From positions 1-64,000 of the IMG/VR virus record IMGVR_UViG_3300018931_000001: a DNA stretch of 64,000 bases, one strand, 5' to 3'. The stretch's first letter is position 1, and every line of letters begins with the position of its first letter. Source of the stretch: a virus. A program made the position numbers and the translations under genes. Of the stretch, positions 53,510-63,893 are shown piece by piece. The notes beneath the pieces are model-generated. The model had not been told where the DNA came from and searched no databases. It saw only the letters and a program-made list of their open reading frames with translations.

Positions 53510-55426
53510 ATGCCAACAAAGTCAAAACCTAAAATAATTGGCAGCGATGCAGTCGCAGGTGTTAATGAACGCGACGCGATTAATCGGATTAATGCTACAA
53601 AAAAGAATAAGTCTGGAAACAACTTTAACTCGGACGGTGCGGTTCCAGCAGAGCAGTTGCCACCTCTGTCTAATGTGACTGGCTCTGACTCTGTTACTGA
53701 ACCAGCACCTTCCCAATCTGCACCAGCTCCTCAATCTTCAACTGCCACTGCTCCGACTCAGGCAGCAATGACTTTTAACGAAGATGGCAGCATGACTCTT
53801 ACGGAGTCTCAATTGCAAATACTGATTGATAGTGGTGTGCGACGAGAGACCCATCAAACCCAAGCTCAATTACAACAAGCAGCCGATCAGATTGCTCAAC
53901 TAAGACAACAACAAGACGCTATTGAAGAGCGCGCAAAAAAAGAAAGAGAAGATCTTGAAAAGCAGGTTGAGAGCGAGCGCAAACAGCGTGACACATGGGC
54001 TAGGGTTTTAAACCAACACGGCTATCCACCTGTTGACATGGGTGGAACCGATCGCGCCCCTCTTCCCTCCCAAGCTTTTATCTCTCCGCTGGCTAACCGA
54101 GGTGGCATTTCTGCCAAGGATGCGGTTCGGGAATTCGAGCGCCGATGTAATGACGCTGGCACAACTGAAGCTCGACTGATTACCACGTCTACAGGCAGTT
54201 ATGTCCAGCGCAATTCGCGATATACCGATCAGTTTTTTGTTGAACATCGTAAGGTGTTGCGCGAAGGTATTGACGCGATCGCCCGCCAGCACGGATTGCT
54301 GCGAGGTCGGAATCAAGTCTGGGGCGGGAAGGATGCGCCAACAACTTTTGCTAATTTCCCGATCGTGCTTCGCGAATATCTCAGTCAAGTTGTGCGGATT
54401 GAGCACAGTGCCCGATTTGTCTTGTGGCAGTTTTGTAACAAGGCGATTCACACTGGCATTCCCATCAACCAAACGGTTTTGGTTCCCCGCGTCCGTCACC
54501 TTAACGTCGGTGTAACTTCTTCTGATTGGAGGCTGACTCCTGGTATCCCGATCGTCCCAACGCGCCAAAACCTAAACGGCAACGGCATCTCTGTTCCGAT
54601 TTTGGAATGGGGTATGGGTAAAGATGCCGTTGTTGAGCCACTAGGAATTCACGAATTAGTTAATGCTGTCACCATTATTGATATTGAGCGATTGGTTCAG
54701 GAACGAATCGGCTACAACTACGGGATGTGGGAAGATTTGCTGCTGTTTGAAATCTTGCTCAGTTCAACAGTCGTCAGCTACAACAACAACGGCACAGTTG
54801 TTAATACTGCCGCTGGAGTTCCGGCAGGTGGTGGCGGTCAGCTAACAATGAATTTTTTCGGGTCGCTGCGAGCTCGAATGGTCAACGACAAAGTGCCACC
54901 TCTTGACGACGGCTGCTTTATCTTTGTCGGCACTCCCGACCATTTCGCATCTCTAGAAAACGACATGGCTGAGAAATCCCAGTATGCGGATAACTCCCAA
55001 GTTGAAGGCTTGACCAATATGCTGCAACTGAAAACCCGCCAAGAGTACATGGGTAAGGTTAACGGTTACAAGGGTCGGGTTCGTGGATTTCATTGTTTTG
55101 AGTCTACTAATATCAGTTCTGGCTTGCCTGGTTCTCCCGGTGTTCAGACTGAGACTTTGGGCGGCAATCCTGTTACGACTCGATCGGGTTTTGCCCTCGG
55201 CGCTGATGCGTTAGGCATGGCTGAATCTATGCCGATGGAAATTCGGGAGTCTGACGATACCGACTTTGGACGGATGCGATCGCTGATTTGGAAAATCCAT
55301 GCAAACGCAACTGGTCTGGATGTTGACCCAAATCGCACTCTACTGCCGAACGAGGTGGCTCGCGCTGTCGGTGGTGAGGAACAGCTTAGGGTTTACGAAG
55401 TCCGATCATCCACAACAAAGGTCTAA
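53510..55426 (+). CDS. Major capsid protein candidate
   Basis: This encodes 638 residues. The N-terminal about 100 residues are Pro/Ser/Ala-rich. A coiled coil spans about 105-170 (QAQLQQAADQIAQLRQQQDA ...). The rest is a large folded domain with features of phage capsids: QVVRIEHSARFVLWQFCNK, NQTVLVPRVRHL and RMRSLIWKIHANATGLDVDP. The N-terminal coiled coil may be a built-in scaffold removed during maturation. It is longer than most HK97-type capsids. Position supports the assignment. Confidence 0.72.
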   Translation: MPTKSKPKIIGSDAVAGVNERDAINRINATKKNKSGNNFNSDGAVPAEQLPPLSNVTGSDSVTEPAPSQSAPAPQSSTATAPTQAAMTFNEDGSMTLTESQLQILIDSGVRRETHQTQAQLQQAADQIAQLRQQQDAIEERAKKEREDLEKQVESERKQRDTWARVLNQHGYPPVDMGGTDRAPLPSQAFISPLANRGGISAKDAVREFERRCNDAGTTEARLITTSTGSYVQRNSRYTDQFFVEHRKVLREGIDAIARQHGLLRGRNQVWGGKDAPTTFANFPIVLREYLSQVVRIEHSARFVLWQFCNKAIHTGIPINQTVLVPRVRHLNVGVTSSDWRLTPGIPIVPTRQNLNGNGISVPILEWGMGKDAVVEPLGIHELVNAVTIIDIERLVQERIGYNYGMWEDLLLFEILLSSTVVSYNNNGTVVNTAAGVPAGGGGQLTMNFFGSLRARMVNDKVPPLDDGCFIFVGTPDHFASLENDMAEKSQYADNSQVEGLTNMLQLKTRQEYMGKVNGYKGRVRGFHCFESTNISSGLPGSPGVQTETLGGNPVTTRSGFALGADALGMAESMPMEIRESDDTDFGRMRSLIWKIHANATGLDVDPNRTLLPNEVARAVGGEEQLRVYEVRSSTTKV

Positions 55427-58038: not shown

Positions 58039-58457
58039 ATGACGAAATTATTGCACTTAAGACGGCAATAGAAACGCTGACAGGATTGGGGACATATCTG
58101 TTCCCGACTGGTCAAAGTTTAAAAGCTGTTGCAGTAGCCAAACCAAACTTTCCACCAACAGGGACACAAACGCAGGGGTTAGAAATTGTAATTATTCCAT
58201 CAGAAGAGTTAACAGCGACGCCAATGCTTAATCAAGGAATGGGTTGGGTTCAATCACACAAGATAACTCTCAAGCAATGGGATAGCCAAGACACAACGTT
58301 AAAAATAATTGAGCCATTAGTCCAGTTATTAATGCACCTCGATTATTCAGTAAATGTCGGGTTAAGAATTGTTCCCAATCCCAATATTGGTAATATAGAA
58401 ACTAGAAATCTGACAATATCTAAAACTATCATAAACAGGAGGAAACATGGGAACTAG
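58017..58457 (+). CDS. Tail-completion/terminator candidate
   Basis: This encodes 146 residues. In siphovirus gene order the protein directly before the tail tube is often the tail terminator. This one is alpha/beta (SLNDEIIALKTAIETLTGL ... LEIVIIPSEEL) and overlaps the tube gene by 11 bases. The identity is inferred from order only. Confidence 0.5.
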   Translation: MGNVSSLNDEIIALKTAIETLTGLGTYLFPTGQSLKAVAVAKPNFPPTGTQTQGLEIVIIPSEELTATPMLNQGMGWVQSHKITLKQWDSQDTTLKIIEPLVQLLMHLDYSVNVGLRIVPNPNIGNIETRNLTISKTIINRRKHGN

Positions 58458-59160
58458 CTATCAAAACCGGGAGTTACAAAAAGGCTGGAAAACTTCAGTC
58501 TACTGCTGGAGACAGAAAACCAAACCTGTGCTGCCATTTGCGCCTGCCACCCTGACACTGACAGCAGCGGCGACAGAAGGCGGAACAACGATGACCGTAA
58601 CGGGCGCTCCGGCTACGGCGATCGAAAAAGGTAACGTTCTGCTCTTTGTTGACGCTGACGAGCTAGCGTATCTTGCTGAGGTAACGGCTAACAGTACAGG
58701 CGGAGCGCTAACTGTTCGGGCGTTAGCAGAAACTATTCCATCAGGTGCAACGGCGATGTGGCCGCCTGAATTGCTTGATCGGACTGATGCTGAAATTAGT
58801 CGAACGGTTGACACCACTGACACCCAAACATTTAACACGGGTGGTAACAAACTAATTACGACAACTACCAGCAGTCGATCACTGAGTCTGCCCGGCCCTT
58901 ATATGCTGAAAAACGGCGGTTATTGGACGGCGTTCTTTTCAGCAGAAGAGAAAGTCGCGTTGTGGTTTGCCATTCAACACGAAGCGCCCGATCAAGACTT
59001 GGGGACTATTAAAGAAGCCCCATTTATTGCTAAGGGTTACGTCACGGACAACACGACATCGGCGGCTGCTGACGGATTTAGAATGGGCGACTTATCAGTC
59101 GATATTACGGGCGCACCAATTAGTGACTTCCGAGTAGTTGGAATCCCTAACGCAGCGTAA
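58447..59160 (+). CDS. Major tail tube protein candidate
   Basis: This encodes 237 residues, starting at an ATG with AGGAGG a few bases upstream, one of the strongest ribosome sites in the window. The protein is beta-rich and Thr/Ala-rich, as tube proteins are. It precedes the tail chaperone genes in the expected order. Strong translation fits a protein needed in many copies. Confidence 0.65.
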   Translation: MGTSYQNRELQKGWKTSVYCWRQKTKPVLPFAPATLTLTAAATEGGTTMTVTGAPATAIEKGNVLLFVDADELAYLAEVTANSTGGALTVRALAETIPSGATAMWPPELLDRTDAEISRTVDTTDTQTFNTGGNKLITTTTSSRSLSLPGPYMLKNGGYWTAFFSAEEKVALWFAIQHEAPDQDLGTIKEAPFIAKGYVTDNTTSAAADGFRMGDLSVDITGAPISDFRVVGIPNAA

Positions 59161-59168
59161 CTTGAGAA

Positions 59169-59393
59169 ATGACTAAAGTTGCATCTCTTCAAACTAAGGG
59201 TGTTTTTGCTTGCTGTTGCAACATTCACGATTACACAATCCATTGTGAAATGTTGGCAATCAGCGGAAATCAAGAGTCTGAAGCAAAGTTACTAGACGTA
59301 GAAACAGGTAAGCGGTATCCAGTTCGCTTGCCTGTTGGTGCTCACATACTATGGGATTACACTATGGAGAGAATTGTCGATGCTGCCATTTAA
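59169..59393 (+). CDS. Small unknown tail-region protein
   Basis: This encodes 74 residues containing CCCNIHDYTIHCEML, a cluster of four Cys and two His, perhaps a metal site. It overlaps the chaperone gene start by 14 bases. The family is not recognised. Confidence 0.5.
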   Translation: MTKVASLQTKGVFACCCNIHDYTIHCEMLAISGNQESEAKLLDVETGKRYPVRLPVGAHILWDYTMERIVDAAI

Positions 59394-59922
59394 GACTACT
59401 GCCACGCAGCAGGGAGAAAATACGGCGCTGATTGAGGACGGCTTTGGTAACTCGATCGAAATTCCGAAATACGGATGTCTGACCTATAACGAGGAAAATG
59501 CCATAAGTCAATACTATATGGGACTTAAAGATGGTGTTAGTAGAGTTGATGCACGATTATCAGAAATTACCATTTTGCTTCGTTCTAGGTTTAAACTGCC
59601 TGATTTGACAACCGATCAAGTTGCCGAGCAAGCCACAACAATGCCAATGATTGATTGCTTGTACGAATTTGTATTAGGTGAGCGCACTCGGTGGATACCC
59701 AAAGAGGTTTTACTCGAACTGACTGGAGAGGTAGCTAAGGAAATGGCGATCGAAACAGCCCGCCAGTATAAAGGCATTGTCGCCGGACGCCCTGACCTTG
59801 AATTAGAAAAGCGCTGGGTCGTGTTCGCAAAGAAAGGGCCTTGGCTTGAAGGGTTTGAAATCCTTAAAGACTTTGCGGAAGATGAGCCGATGGGAAAGCC
59901 ACTGACTCGAAACCTCAACTAA
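59380..59922 (+). CDS. Tail assembly chaperone (gpG-like)
   Basis: This encodes 180 residues from ATG 59380. ALIEDGFGNSIEIPKYG near the start, a helical middle and LYEFVLGE are shared with the gene at 60313. It lies between the tail tube and the tape-measure end of the module, where siphoviruses encode gpG. The 3' end contains G-GGA-AAG in frame, which can shift ribosomes into the -1 frame that encodes the T domain. Chaperones of this type guide tail assembly around the tape measure and are not in the virion. Confidence 0.75.
   Translation: MLPFKTTATQQGENTALIEDGFGNSIEIPKYGCLTYNEENAISQYYMGLKDGVSRVDARLSEITILLRSRFKLPDLTTDQVAEQATTMPMIDCLYEFVLGERTRWIPKEVLLELTGEVAKEMAIETARQYKGIVAGRPDLELEKRWVVFAKKGPWLEGFEILKDFAEDEPMGKPLTRNLN
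59892..59898 (+). promoter_or_regulatory. Programmed -1 frameshift slippery site
   Basis: GGGAAAG is positioned as G-GGA-AAG relative to the upstream frame (codons GGA 59893-59895 and AAG 59896-59898). This is the same heptamer used by lambda gpG-gpGT. The -1 frame stays open for 136 codons to 60308. Confidence 0.85.
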
Positions 59923-60308
59923 TTGACTGGGAGAGTATTTACTGGAAATTGCGGTTAAATTATCCATCGGACGATCGATTTAATTCTGATAATTTTGCAG
60001 ACCAACCTCTAGTAATTATTGAACAAGCTTTAGAGGCGATCGGCAAAAGAGAGATTGAATTAGGCAACCTAATAGCAACTCCAATCAGTAGAGCGATGTT
60101 GTACATCCTTTCTAGCAAAGGAGTTAAACGCCCCGAGCGTGAACTTAACTCGATCAATCCATACGCACAGGCAATAGAGAGTGAGATTGCTAAGAAAAAA
60201 TACTCTAAAGAGTTTGCTCAGACTTTCCTTAAGTTGTTAAAAGACGGGAAAATACCACACTGGGTAGCTAGCGCGATTGATATCGAAACGATAAATTTAG
60301 CAAGGTAA
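59898..60308 (+). CDS. Frameshift extension (T domain) of the tail chaperone
   Basis: After a -1 shift at 59892-59898 the frame reads ATDSKPQLIDWESIYWKLRL and continues for 136 residues to 60308. The fusion gpGT-like product would be about 309 residues. Independent translation could use TTG 59949, but the continuous open -1 frame across the end of the upstream gene and the exact slippery heptamer favour frameshifting. Confidence 0.78.
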   Translation, partial: ATDSKPQLIDWESIYWKLRLNYPSDDRFNSDNFADQPLVIIEQALEAIGKREIELGNLIATPISRAMLYILSSKGVKRPERELNSINPYAQAIESEIAKKKYSKEFAQTFLKLLKDGKIPHWVASAIDIETINLAR

Positions 60309-60312
60309 CAAT

Positions 60313-60789
60313 ATGACAAGGAATTCCAAGATTGTGAGTGAAATAGCAGAACTTCAAGTAGCGAAAACTGAAAACACTACAGTGTTAAACTTTGTTTCTA
60401 CTGCTGAAAAAAAACAGGTTGAAATTGACGATGGCTTGGGCAACGTAGTAATTGTGCCAAGCAAAGGCGCTGCTGACTGCGTTGAGTACAACAAGGTCAT
60501 GCAATTGCTGTACCGCATGGAAAAAGACCCCACACAGGCTTTAGGAATGGAGGTTGACATAGTAATACTTTGCCTCCGCCACCGTTACAAACTTGCAAAA
60601 ACTGTGACTGATGACAGTGTTTTGTTGGACAAAGATGGCGATCCGGTACCCATATCACTTGTCAAAAAACTGTACGAGTTTTTTATGAAAGAACTCCAGC
60701 TCGAAAGAGTTTTAGACGCGCAAAAAACGGCTATTGAAGGGCGAAAATCCGTGATGCGGATGGAAGATGCTGCGCCTTATTTGGAATAA
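60313..60789 (+). CDS. Second tail-chaperone-like protein
   Basis: This encodes 158 residues. The segment VEIDDGLGNVVIVPSKG ... LYRMEKDP ... VDIVILCLRHRYKL ... VKKLYEFFMKELQ parallels the gpG-like protein (IEDGFGNSIEIPKYG ... IRF/KL ... LYEFVLGE), so the two are probably paralogues on either side of the T extension. A specialised or duplicated assembly chaperone is likely. Confidence 0.65.
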   Translation: MTRNSKIVSEIAELQVAKTENTTVLNFVSTAEKKQVEIDDGLGNVVIVPSKGAADCVEYNKVMQLLYRMEKDPTQALGMEVDIVILCLRHRYKLAKTVTDDSVLLDKDGDPVPISLVKKLYEFFMKELQLERVLDAQKTAIEGRKSVMRMEDAAPYLE

Positions 60790-60887: not shown

Positions 60888-61709
60888 ATGGCAAGAGTAT
60901 TTGTTCCAACCCGATACCTATCTCAACAAAATAATCGGTTATATCGCTCAGGAACGTGCAACACCACTTCTATTGCAATGGGTATGGGTAATCACGGGGA
61001 ACCATTGATTCGTCCTGACGGTACTCAGCTTGAAGATTACTTGACTCAATACTGTTTGGACAATGGCTTATCTCGGCATTCTCCAGGGGATTTGGAGGTT
61101 TTGGCGCAGAAGCACGGATACAGGTTCCGATTTAGTGCTTATGCTACTTGGGAAGAGGTCAAAGCTTGGCTGCGTCAAGGGAAAATTTGTATAACTCATG
61201 GCTGGTTTACTGATTTTGGTCATATTTTAGTAATTTGTGGCTACGACGAAGAAAAGCAGTGTTGGATTGTACACGACCCTTGGGGTGAATGGTATCCAGG
61301 TGGATACGACACTAGCGTTTCGGGTGAAGCGTTGGAGTATTCTTTTCGGATGATGTCACGATTGTGCGGGCCCGACGCAGAAAATCAACTCTGGATTCAC
61401 TTCGTTAATGGTAAAAGTGAAGACAAGCGCGTTTGGAAGCCGGGAGAACTTGGAGGGTTGCGGCTTCAGGATATCTACGAGCGCAAGTTGTCGCTATCGT
61501 TGGGGGATGTAAAGAAAGATATAGGGTTGACCAAACAAGTACAGATTTGCCTTACTCGGTTCCCACAGTTTCAACCAGGAACACCAGATGGTAGTTGGGG
61601 CCCGGTAACTCAGAAAGCATTTGAGAATTTGGCTTTTAACTTTCAGGTTGACGCGAGGGTGATCGACTTTAAAACTGCAAAAATTCTGATTGAGGGTAAA
61701 TATAGATAG
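60888..61709 (+). CDS. C39-like peptidase with C-terminal peptidoglycan-binding region
   Basis: This encodes 273 residues. Catalytic Cys24 (SGTCNTTSIAM), His112 (FGHILVICGYD) and Asp130 (HDPWGEW) form the papain-fold triad of Peptidase_C39_2. Residues about 205-270 (QICLTRFPQFQPGTPDGSWG) resemble a PG_binding_1 domain. In a tail module this is probably a virion-associated peptidoglycan hydrolase for DNA entry, distinct from the lysozyme at 9.5 kb. Confidence 0.82.
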   Translation: MARVFVPTRYLSQQNNRLYRSGTCNTTSIAMGMGNHGEPLIRPDGTQLEDYLTQYCLDNGLSRHSPGDLEVLAQKHGYRFRFSAYATWEEVKAWLRQGKICITHGWFTDFGHILVICGYDEEKQCWIVHDPWGEWYPGGYDTSVSGEALEYSFRMMSRLCGPDAENQLWIHFVNGKSEDKRVWKPGELGGLRLQDIYERKLSLSLGDVKKDIGLTKQVQICLTRFPQFQPGTPDGSWGPVTQKAFENLAFNFQVDARVIDFKTAKILIEGKYR

Positions 61710-61747
61710 TTTGTAATCTAAATTAGATTTAACTTAAGAATTAAAAT

Positions 61748-63502
61748 ATGCCCAACGCTTACGGACGCGCTTTTACCACTGCTAATTTTCTTTCTAATTT
61801 GACTGCTTTGAAAGCTATAAATTTTGGCGCGTCCGATCCGAGCGGAGTTTGGTTTGTTGTTCCGAATTCCAGCACGAATAATGTTGAGATTTGGGTATGG
61901 GAACCCGGCTCGGTACTTGCTACTGATGAAGTTTCGGTAGTGCGACCAGATTCTATAGCTCCGGGAAGTCCGGGCAGGTGCTTGCAACGGCTTCAATTTG
62001 ATGCAAGCCAGCTTGGCGGAATTTTAGCAGCTATCGCCACACTCAACACCGCTGGATTGATTGAACGGACGGCTGGCGGTGGCGCTGCCATTATATCTGT
62101 TAGTAACTACGCTAAGACTCTGCTCAATGATGTAGATGAGGATGCAGCACGAGTAACTTTAGGCTTAGGTTCAGTTGCGACTCGATCAATAGGCACAACA
62201 AGCGGACAGGTTAGAGACGCAGGAGACTCGACTTATTCAGATGCCAGGACTCCTCTTTCTCATGCTAGCTCCCATCTTTCAGGAGGAAGTGATGCTTTTG
62301 ATACTACATTATTGCGTCAAACAATTGACTTAGGAAATGTTAACAATACCAGCGACGCAAATAAGCCTGTTTCAACTGCAACACAGACAGCCCTAAACCT
62401 CAAAGCTAATCTCGCTTCTCCAACTTTTACAGGAATCCCCGCCGTCCCAACTGCAACTGCTGGAACAAATACAACTCAGGCAGCAAGCACGGCTTTTGTC
62501 GGCACCGCTATTTCTAATTTAATAAACTCTTCGCCTGCTGTGCTTGATACCCTAGGCGAACTTGCTGCAGCATTAGGCAATGATGCTAATTTTGCAACGA
62601 CAGTTACGAATGCTTTAGCAACAAAAGCACCTTTAAACTCTCCTGTTTTGGTTACTCCCAATTTAGGAACTCCTAGTGCTGGAGTATTAACTAATGTAAC
62701 TGGATTACCTTTATCTACTGGTATAACTGGAACCCTTGCTATTGGAAATGGAGGTACAGGCGCGACAACTCAACAGGGAGCAATTAATGCTTTGGTGGGA
62801 ACACAAATAGCCAACAGATTGCTCAGGAGCAACGGAACTAATACCTTTTTAGCTCAAGCTAGTTTAACTACGGACGTTACAGGTATCCTTCCTATTGCTA
62901 ACGGCGGTACTAATAGCAACACTCAAAATTGGGTAGATTTAACCACGAATCAAAATATTGCTGGGGTTAAAACTTACACAGATACTACTGAATCTACCAG
63001 CACTACTACTGGAAGTGTTAAATACTTAGGAGGACTTGCTGTTGTTAAAAATTTATCAGTAGGCGGAACCATAAAGCAAGATATTAATTATACTTTTAAA
63101 GCTGCTACAAATGTCTCTCAATCTATACCTGCTACTACTTTCACTAAAATTGCTTTAGCTTCTGAGGTTACTGATACAAACAATCAGTATACTGCTGCGA
63201 GTTCAAGATTAGTTGCTAATACTACCGAAGTTTGGAGTTTGTTTATTTTTATAACGTTTAGCTTAGCAGCAGCTTCAAGAATTATATTGTCTGTTTATAA
63301 AAATGGTTCTGAATCGGGAGGAGTAAGGGTTATGGATATTACTCCTTCTGCTGGCTTTTTTGGAATACCTATCACTATCCAAGAAATTAATCTCGTAGCA
63401 ACAGATTATTTAGAAATGTACTGCTATATAGGCTCTGTTCAAAATGTTTACGGAGATGCTACACTAGGAGCTACATATTGGTATGGCAAACGAATAAATT
63501 AA
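61748..63502 (+). CDS. Tail fibre-like protein
   Basis: This encodes 584 residues. The middle has fibre-type repeats: [54 protein letters not shown] and [20 protein letters not shown]. The C-terminal 120 residues form a beta-rich tip. The N-terminal about 110 residues may attach to the virion. Such proteins contact the host surface. It lies upstream of the presumed tape measure, an unusual place for a fibre. Confidence 0.82.
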
Positions 63503-63515
63503 TTAACAAAAAGCT

Positions 63516-63893
63516 ATGGGAGTTCCAATTTCAGAAGATGACGTTACAAGTCTTCATGTCGCCGACAGACTACAAATAAACTTAGCGCAAGCTGAAGAAG
63601 ATGTTGAAAAAATGGAACTTGAAGTTTTTTTTAAAATCTTTACGGTTTTGCCTAACGGCAAAGTAGTTGGAGAACCGTACCTTGATACTGCAAAGCCTTT
63701 GCGTTTTACTTGCAAAAATAATCCAGAGTTGAAAGCTGCAATGGAATTAATTCAACAAACTATAGGGGAAAAACGTTATGAACAGTTGACAGCTCAACCA
63801 GAAATCCCCCCACCATCACAAATTCCTGCGTTGTCAGAAATTTCTGAACCCGTCGAAAATCCAGAGATGATACCACCAATTGAAAACAGCTAA
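63516..63893 (+). CDS. Unknown tail-region protein
   Basis: This encodes 125 residues. A folded N-terminal half (ISEDDVTSLHVADRLQINLA) is followed by a Pro/Glu/Ile-rich tail (PEIPPPSQIPALSEISEPVE). It is probably an accessory tail or fibre-assembly protein. The family is not recognised. Confidence 0.5.
   Translation: MGVPISEDDVTSLHVADRLQINLAQAEEDVEKMELEVFFKIFTVLPNGKVVGEPYLDTAKPLRFTCKNNPELKAAMELIQQTIGEKRYEQLTAQPEIPPPSQIPALSEISEPVENPEMIPPIENS

Follow-up and report, generated by a model that had tools for sequence, protein, structure and literature searches.

A probable programmed -1 frameshift yielding a G and GT tail assembly chaperone pair in a cyanobacterial siphovirus

Organisation of the tail gene region

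The window, a stretch of 64,000 nucleotides from the virus record IMGVR_UViG_3300018931_000001 (a contig of 71,013 bases), carries two overlapping open reading frames, here called G and T, placed between the genes for a major tail protein and a tape measure protein. G (59380..59922, plus strand) encodes a short putative tail assembly chaperone of 180 aa, and T (59886..60308, plus strand) occupies the -1 frame relative to it. The gene at 58447..59160 (plus strand) probably encodes the major tail protein. No direct family match was found for its product, and the assignment is based on position and resemblance: it lies in the same place as a gene of the relative L013 (L013:6736-7422), whose product belongs by profile match to the major tail protein family phrog_1407 (E 1.1e-4) and visibly resembles the window protein. 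Between this gene and G is a cysteine-rich ORF of 74 aa (59169..59393, plus strand) that is conserved in relatives, and directly 3' of T lies G2 (60313..60789, plus strand), a paralogue of G without a T extension (tblastn E 4.3e-6, hhalign E 2.2e-7).

About 4.2 kb 3' of T, beyond other genes, the tape measure gene begins (contig position 64479); its product has a length of 2,178 aa or more and matches phrog_4704 (E 4.6e-24). Past the window end there is also a tail-completion-like gene (phrog_5, E 3.8e-6). The interval between G2 and the latter (60888-63893) holds genes for a C39-like peptidase and a tail fibre plus one more ORF, all absent at the corresponding place in the close relative L004. 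In L013, L014 and L015 the major tail protein gene is followed by G, T and the tape measure gene in that order, and no more than one gene separates the last two; the L013 tape measure protein matches TIGR01760 (E 8.4e-45).

As regards the host, the octamer GCGATCGC (HIP1) occurs 17 times against 0.9 expected. HIP1 is abundant in many cyanobacteria, and the excess of GCGATCGC, together with the presence of homologues in Synechococcus phages, points to a cyanobacterial host.

The probable frameshift site and its predicted products

A sequence-only reading of this DNA had placed a G GGA AAG heptamer in the correct phase near a gpG-like stop, and renewed reading of codons and coordinates puts it exactly there, at 59892..59898 (plus strand). 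The zero-frame codons at the site are ATG GGA AAG CCA, with G at 59892, GGA at 59893-59895 and AAG at 59896-59898, which is the exact phase for tandem -1 slippage. After the heptamer the zero frame of G continues for seven sense codons and ends at TAA (59920-59922). The -1 frame opens just 5' of the heptamer, at 59886, and its stop is at 60306-60308; read from 59898, after a slip, it remains open for 136 codons, the length that had been claimed for it. A ribosome slipping at this point would produce a GT fusion (59380..60308, plus strand) with 173 residues from G and 136 from T, which gives the 309 residues expected of the long product.

Both strands of the contig were scanned for ORFs of 100 or more codons that have an in-phase XXXYYYZ among their final 20 codons and beyond which the -1 frame continues open for 80 codons or more, and this place alone was returned. 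As for stimulatory elements, no upstream Shine-Dalgarno-like element or downstream structure stands out at the window site or recurs consistently in the loci compared. The Shine-Dalgarno-like sequences of L014, S-CRES1 and L024 are stronger than most of their own gene.

Conservation of the site among relatives

Relatives were found via G, via the upstream gene at 53510-55426 and via T-domain alignments. The resulting set comprises 16 viral contigs besides that of the window, with T-domain identities from 88% down to 23%, and three cultured cyanosiphophages: S-CRES3 (locus L026), S-CRES1 (L027) and S-CBS2 (L028). An in-phase X XXY YYZ is present at the equivalent place in 18 of the 19 relatives (15 of the 16 contigs and all three cultured phages), and the open -1 frame is likewise kept in related phages, so the comparison that could have told against the proposed site instead bears it out. 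The heptamer lies inside the G-T overlap, 5' of a conserved DW..IYW block, in 15 of the 16 contigs, and directly 5' of the G stop in each of the cultured phages. A canonical heptamer was not found in the remaining contig, the distant relative L025.

Seven distinct heptamers are seen at this spot among the relatives: GGGAAAG (L010, L011, L012 and S-CRES3), GGGAAAA (L015 and L024), GGGAAAC (L020), AAAAAAG (L017-L019, S-CRES1 and S-CBS2), AAAAAAT (L013), AAAAAAA (L016 and L021-L023) and CCCAAAG (L014, where two other candidates are also present in a long overlap). That the type of heptamer changes repeatedly at a location that is itself kept argues for selection on slipperiness as such.

Could the heptamer nevertheless be there by chance, or could a sequencing or assembly indel have split one continuous gene? 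Viewed singly, an in-phase heptamer in an 11-codon overlap has a probability of about 5%. The background in the long ORFs of the compared loci is 161 in-phase XXXYYYZ per 31,270 codons (about 0.5%), at which chance alone would give a site to about 1.3 of 15 representative loci, against 14 of 15 observed (P ~2e-15, a value that treats as independent loci that are not fully so; the window itself was chosen for its site). The same two-frame layout with a site recurs in independent contigs and in cultured phage genomes, and the configuration is unique in its contig; we thus regard chance or an indel as extremely unlikely.

The sites also bear on whether the fusion might arise by slippage of RNA polymerase and not of the ribosome. 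Runs of seven to eight A residues at the site in L013, L016 and L021-L023 make transcriptional slippage possible in those loci, but the window and several relatives have GGGAAA or CCCAAA, without a long homopolymer run, and the phase of the site is that of tandem tRNA slippage. Transcriptional slippage is accordingly a very improbable source of the fusion.

The T frame is constrained and lacks a conserved start codon

Comparison of the T-only part between the window and L004 gives dN 0.027, dS 1.8 and dN/dS 0.015, against dN/dS of 1.8 and 3.8 when the same region is read in the other two frames; differences in the T frame fall 10/2/43 over the three codon positions. On the evidence of these substitutions, the T frame is protein-coding and under strong purifying selection. 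G, which is 92% identical in L004 and 56-57% in L006 and L011, with distant relatives in further contigs, has a dN/dS of 0.038 against L004.

A protein-coding T frame could in principle be a separate gene, translated from an internal start of its own (for instance TTG at 59949) by reinitiation after the G stop. Such a T-frame TTG does exist in the window, and in public records of S-CBS2 and the S-CRES phages T is made to begin at internal codons. However, the TTG at 59949 is the first possible T-frame start in the window and lies 3' of the start of the DWESIYW block (59925), which is part of the best-conserved stretch of T and would be lost from a protein begun there; the codon is, moreover, CTA in L004. 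Among relatives no conserved T start was found before the DW..IYW block, the few T-frame starts 5' of it (in L012 and L014) not being conserved, so that a second part encoded from its own conserved start codon, the observation named beforehand as contrary to frameshifting, was not encountered. Since a separate gene would in addition leave the recurrent in-phase heptamers unexplained, we consider it highly unlikely that T is expressed in this way.

The cultured phages can be re-read with this in mind. Putative G and T genes, with T homologues detected by tblastn from L024 (E 5e-9 to 4e-5), are present in S-CBS2 (gp015/gp016), S-CRES1 (gp72/gp73) and S-CRES3 (gp79/gp80). Their records list G and T individually and let T begin only at an internal codon, and the public annotations do not mark the probable frameshift, which suggests that T has been annotated there as a separate, truncated gene. 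In these three phages, unlike in the window, the gene annotated as (major) tail protein follows the pair instead of preceding it.

Comparison with phage lambda

The earlier reading had likened the pair to gpG-gpGT of phage lambda, and the heptamer GGGAAAG is indeed identical in lambda. In both cases the site for a -1 shift is placed a few codons before the G stop and T is made, or in the window would be made, via that shift, and the lambda order V-G-T-H corresponds to that in the window: major tail protein, G, T and tape measure. The window differs from lambda in having a 74-aa gene before G, a second G copy after T, and a peptidase, tail fibre and other genes that part T from the tape measure gene. 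The description "lambda-type" therefore holds for mechanism and gene order and does not extend to sequence, G and T having no detectable similarity to lambda gpG and gpT (hhalign E 0.32 and 0.25). Known G/T genes are reported to have low sequence similarity between phages, G-T frameshifting to be widely conserved in long-tailed phages, and G_GGA_AAG to be highly shift-prone in E. coli (PMC5009743).

Family and structure searches were largely silent. Searches of Pfam and PHROGs linked neither G nor T of the window to a named chaperone family, and NCBIfam likewise gave no such match for G. A tblastn search of phages and plasmids with G found nothing, and scans of genome contigs with T alignments found no relative. 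PHROG 34388, of unknown function, is matched by 7 of 17 T-domain members (best E 3.1e-17), the window's own T giving no match to that profile. The structure model of G is a confident one (pLDDT 84), yet its Foldseek matches are weak: the best viral match (E 0.015) has no name, and several entries named "tail assembly chaperone" appear at E 0.4 to 1.5. Matches to the PDB were insignificant for G (Foldseek and VIA-align) and for T (Foldseek). The best match to the G model in BFVD is F4YCJ6, with 181 aa; S-CBS2 gp015 has the same length, the likeness between these two being one of length.

Given that neither sequence nor fold matches a solved chaperone, one may ask whether the frameshift is real and G and GT are virion proteins or other tail proteins, not assembly chaperones. 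Against this stands the position relative to the major tail protein and tape measure genes together with the two-product frameshift layout, a combination that describes G/GT of long-tailed phages generally (PMC5009743). We consider a role other than chaperone improbable. Site conservation, constraint on the T frame, the lack of a conserved T start and gene order all favour the proposal that these unrecognised genes are tail assembly chaperones, and we conclude with high confidence that a programmed -1 frameshift yields the G and GT chaperone pair of a cyanobacterial siphovirus.

How the pair might work can be sketched from lambda, where low-level slippage yields gpGT, the binding partner of the G part is the tape measure protein and that of the T part the tail tube protein, and the molar ratio is about 30 to 1 (PMC5009743). 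Most ribosomes would read G alone and release the 180-aa product. A minority would slip back one base with P- and A-site tRNAs on GGA and AAG of G GGA AAG; the slipped tRNAs would re-pair with GGG and AAA, and the T frame would then be read, giving the 309-residue GT. By analogy with lambda, many copies of G and few of GT might cover the tape measure protein, and T might draw in the major tail protein and so let the tube grow to its correct length. That the window pair works like lambda G/GT is well supported, the resemblance being one of layout, site and conservation; the occurrence of slippage, its efficiency, the binding partners and the chaperone function are what we infer here.

The frameshift trick itself is already known from phage lambda and is ordinary in kind. 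Its recognition here is useful for cyanosiphophage annotation: two gene families that occur across a wide group of cyanobacterial siphoviruses and had no functional family match now have a likely function and a likely mechanism of decoding. Because the heptamers change from phage to phage while the site stays in place, these loci are also of use for comparative work on -1 frameshifting in cyanobacteria.

A G paralogue, probable recombination and a possible fusion around T

G2 is present in the window and in its closer relatives (L004:6933-7376, L006:13805-14281 and L011:8404-8880) and lacks a T frame. In L013 and L014, which are more distant, no G2 was seen and the T extension belongs to the one G. 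G2 may add short-form chaperone. A tentative and rather doubtful extension of this idea is that G was duplicated in the window lineage, that the never-extended G2 and slippage would together set the ratio of short to long form, and that G2 may share in coating the tape measure. An in-phase AAAAAAA occurs in the first part of G2 in the window (60408), L006 (L006:13900) and L011 (L011:8499).

The window and L004 match at 81% up to 60263, after which the window resembles L006, and the window G2 protein is 85% identical to that of L006 against 41% to that of L004. This pattern of sequence identity makes it probable that recombination took place within the 3' end of T, with the junction at about 60255-60265 of the window.

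Finally, the C-terminal tails of T in L015, L020 and L024 are weakly similar to the 74-aa cysteine-rich ORF (hhalign E 0.0016, probability 16%), and a module resembling this ORF may have been fused to the end of T in these three loci.
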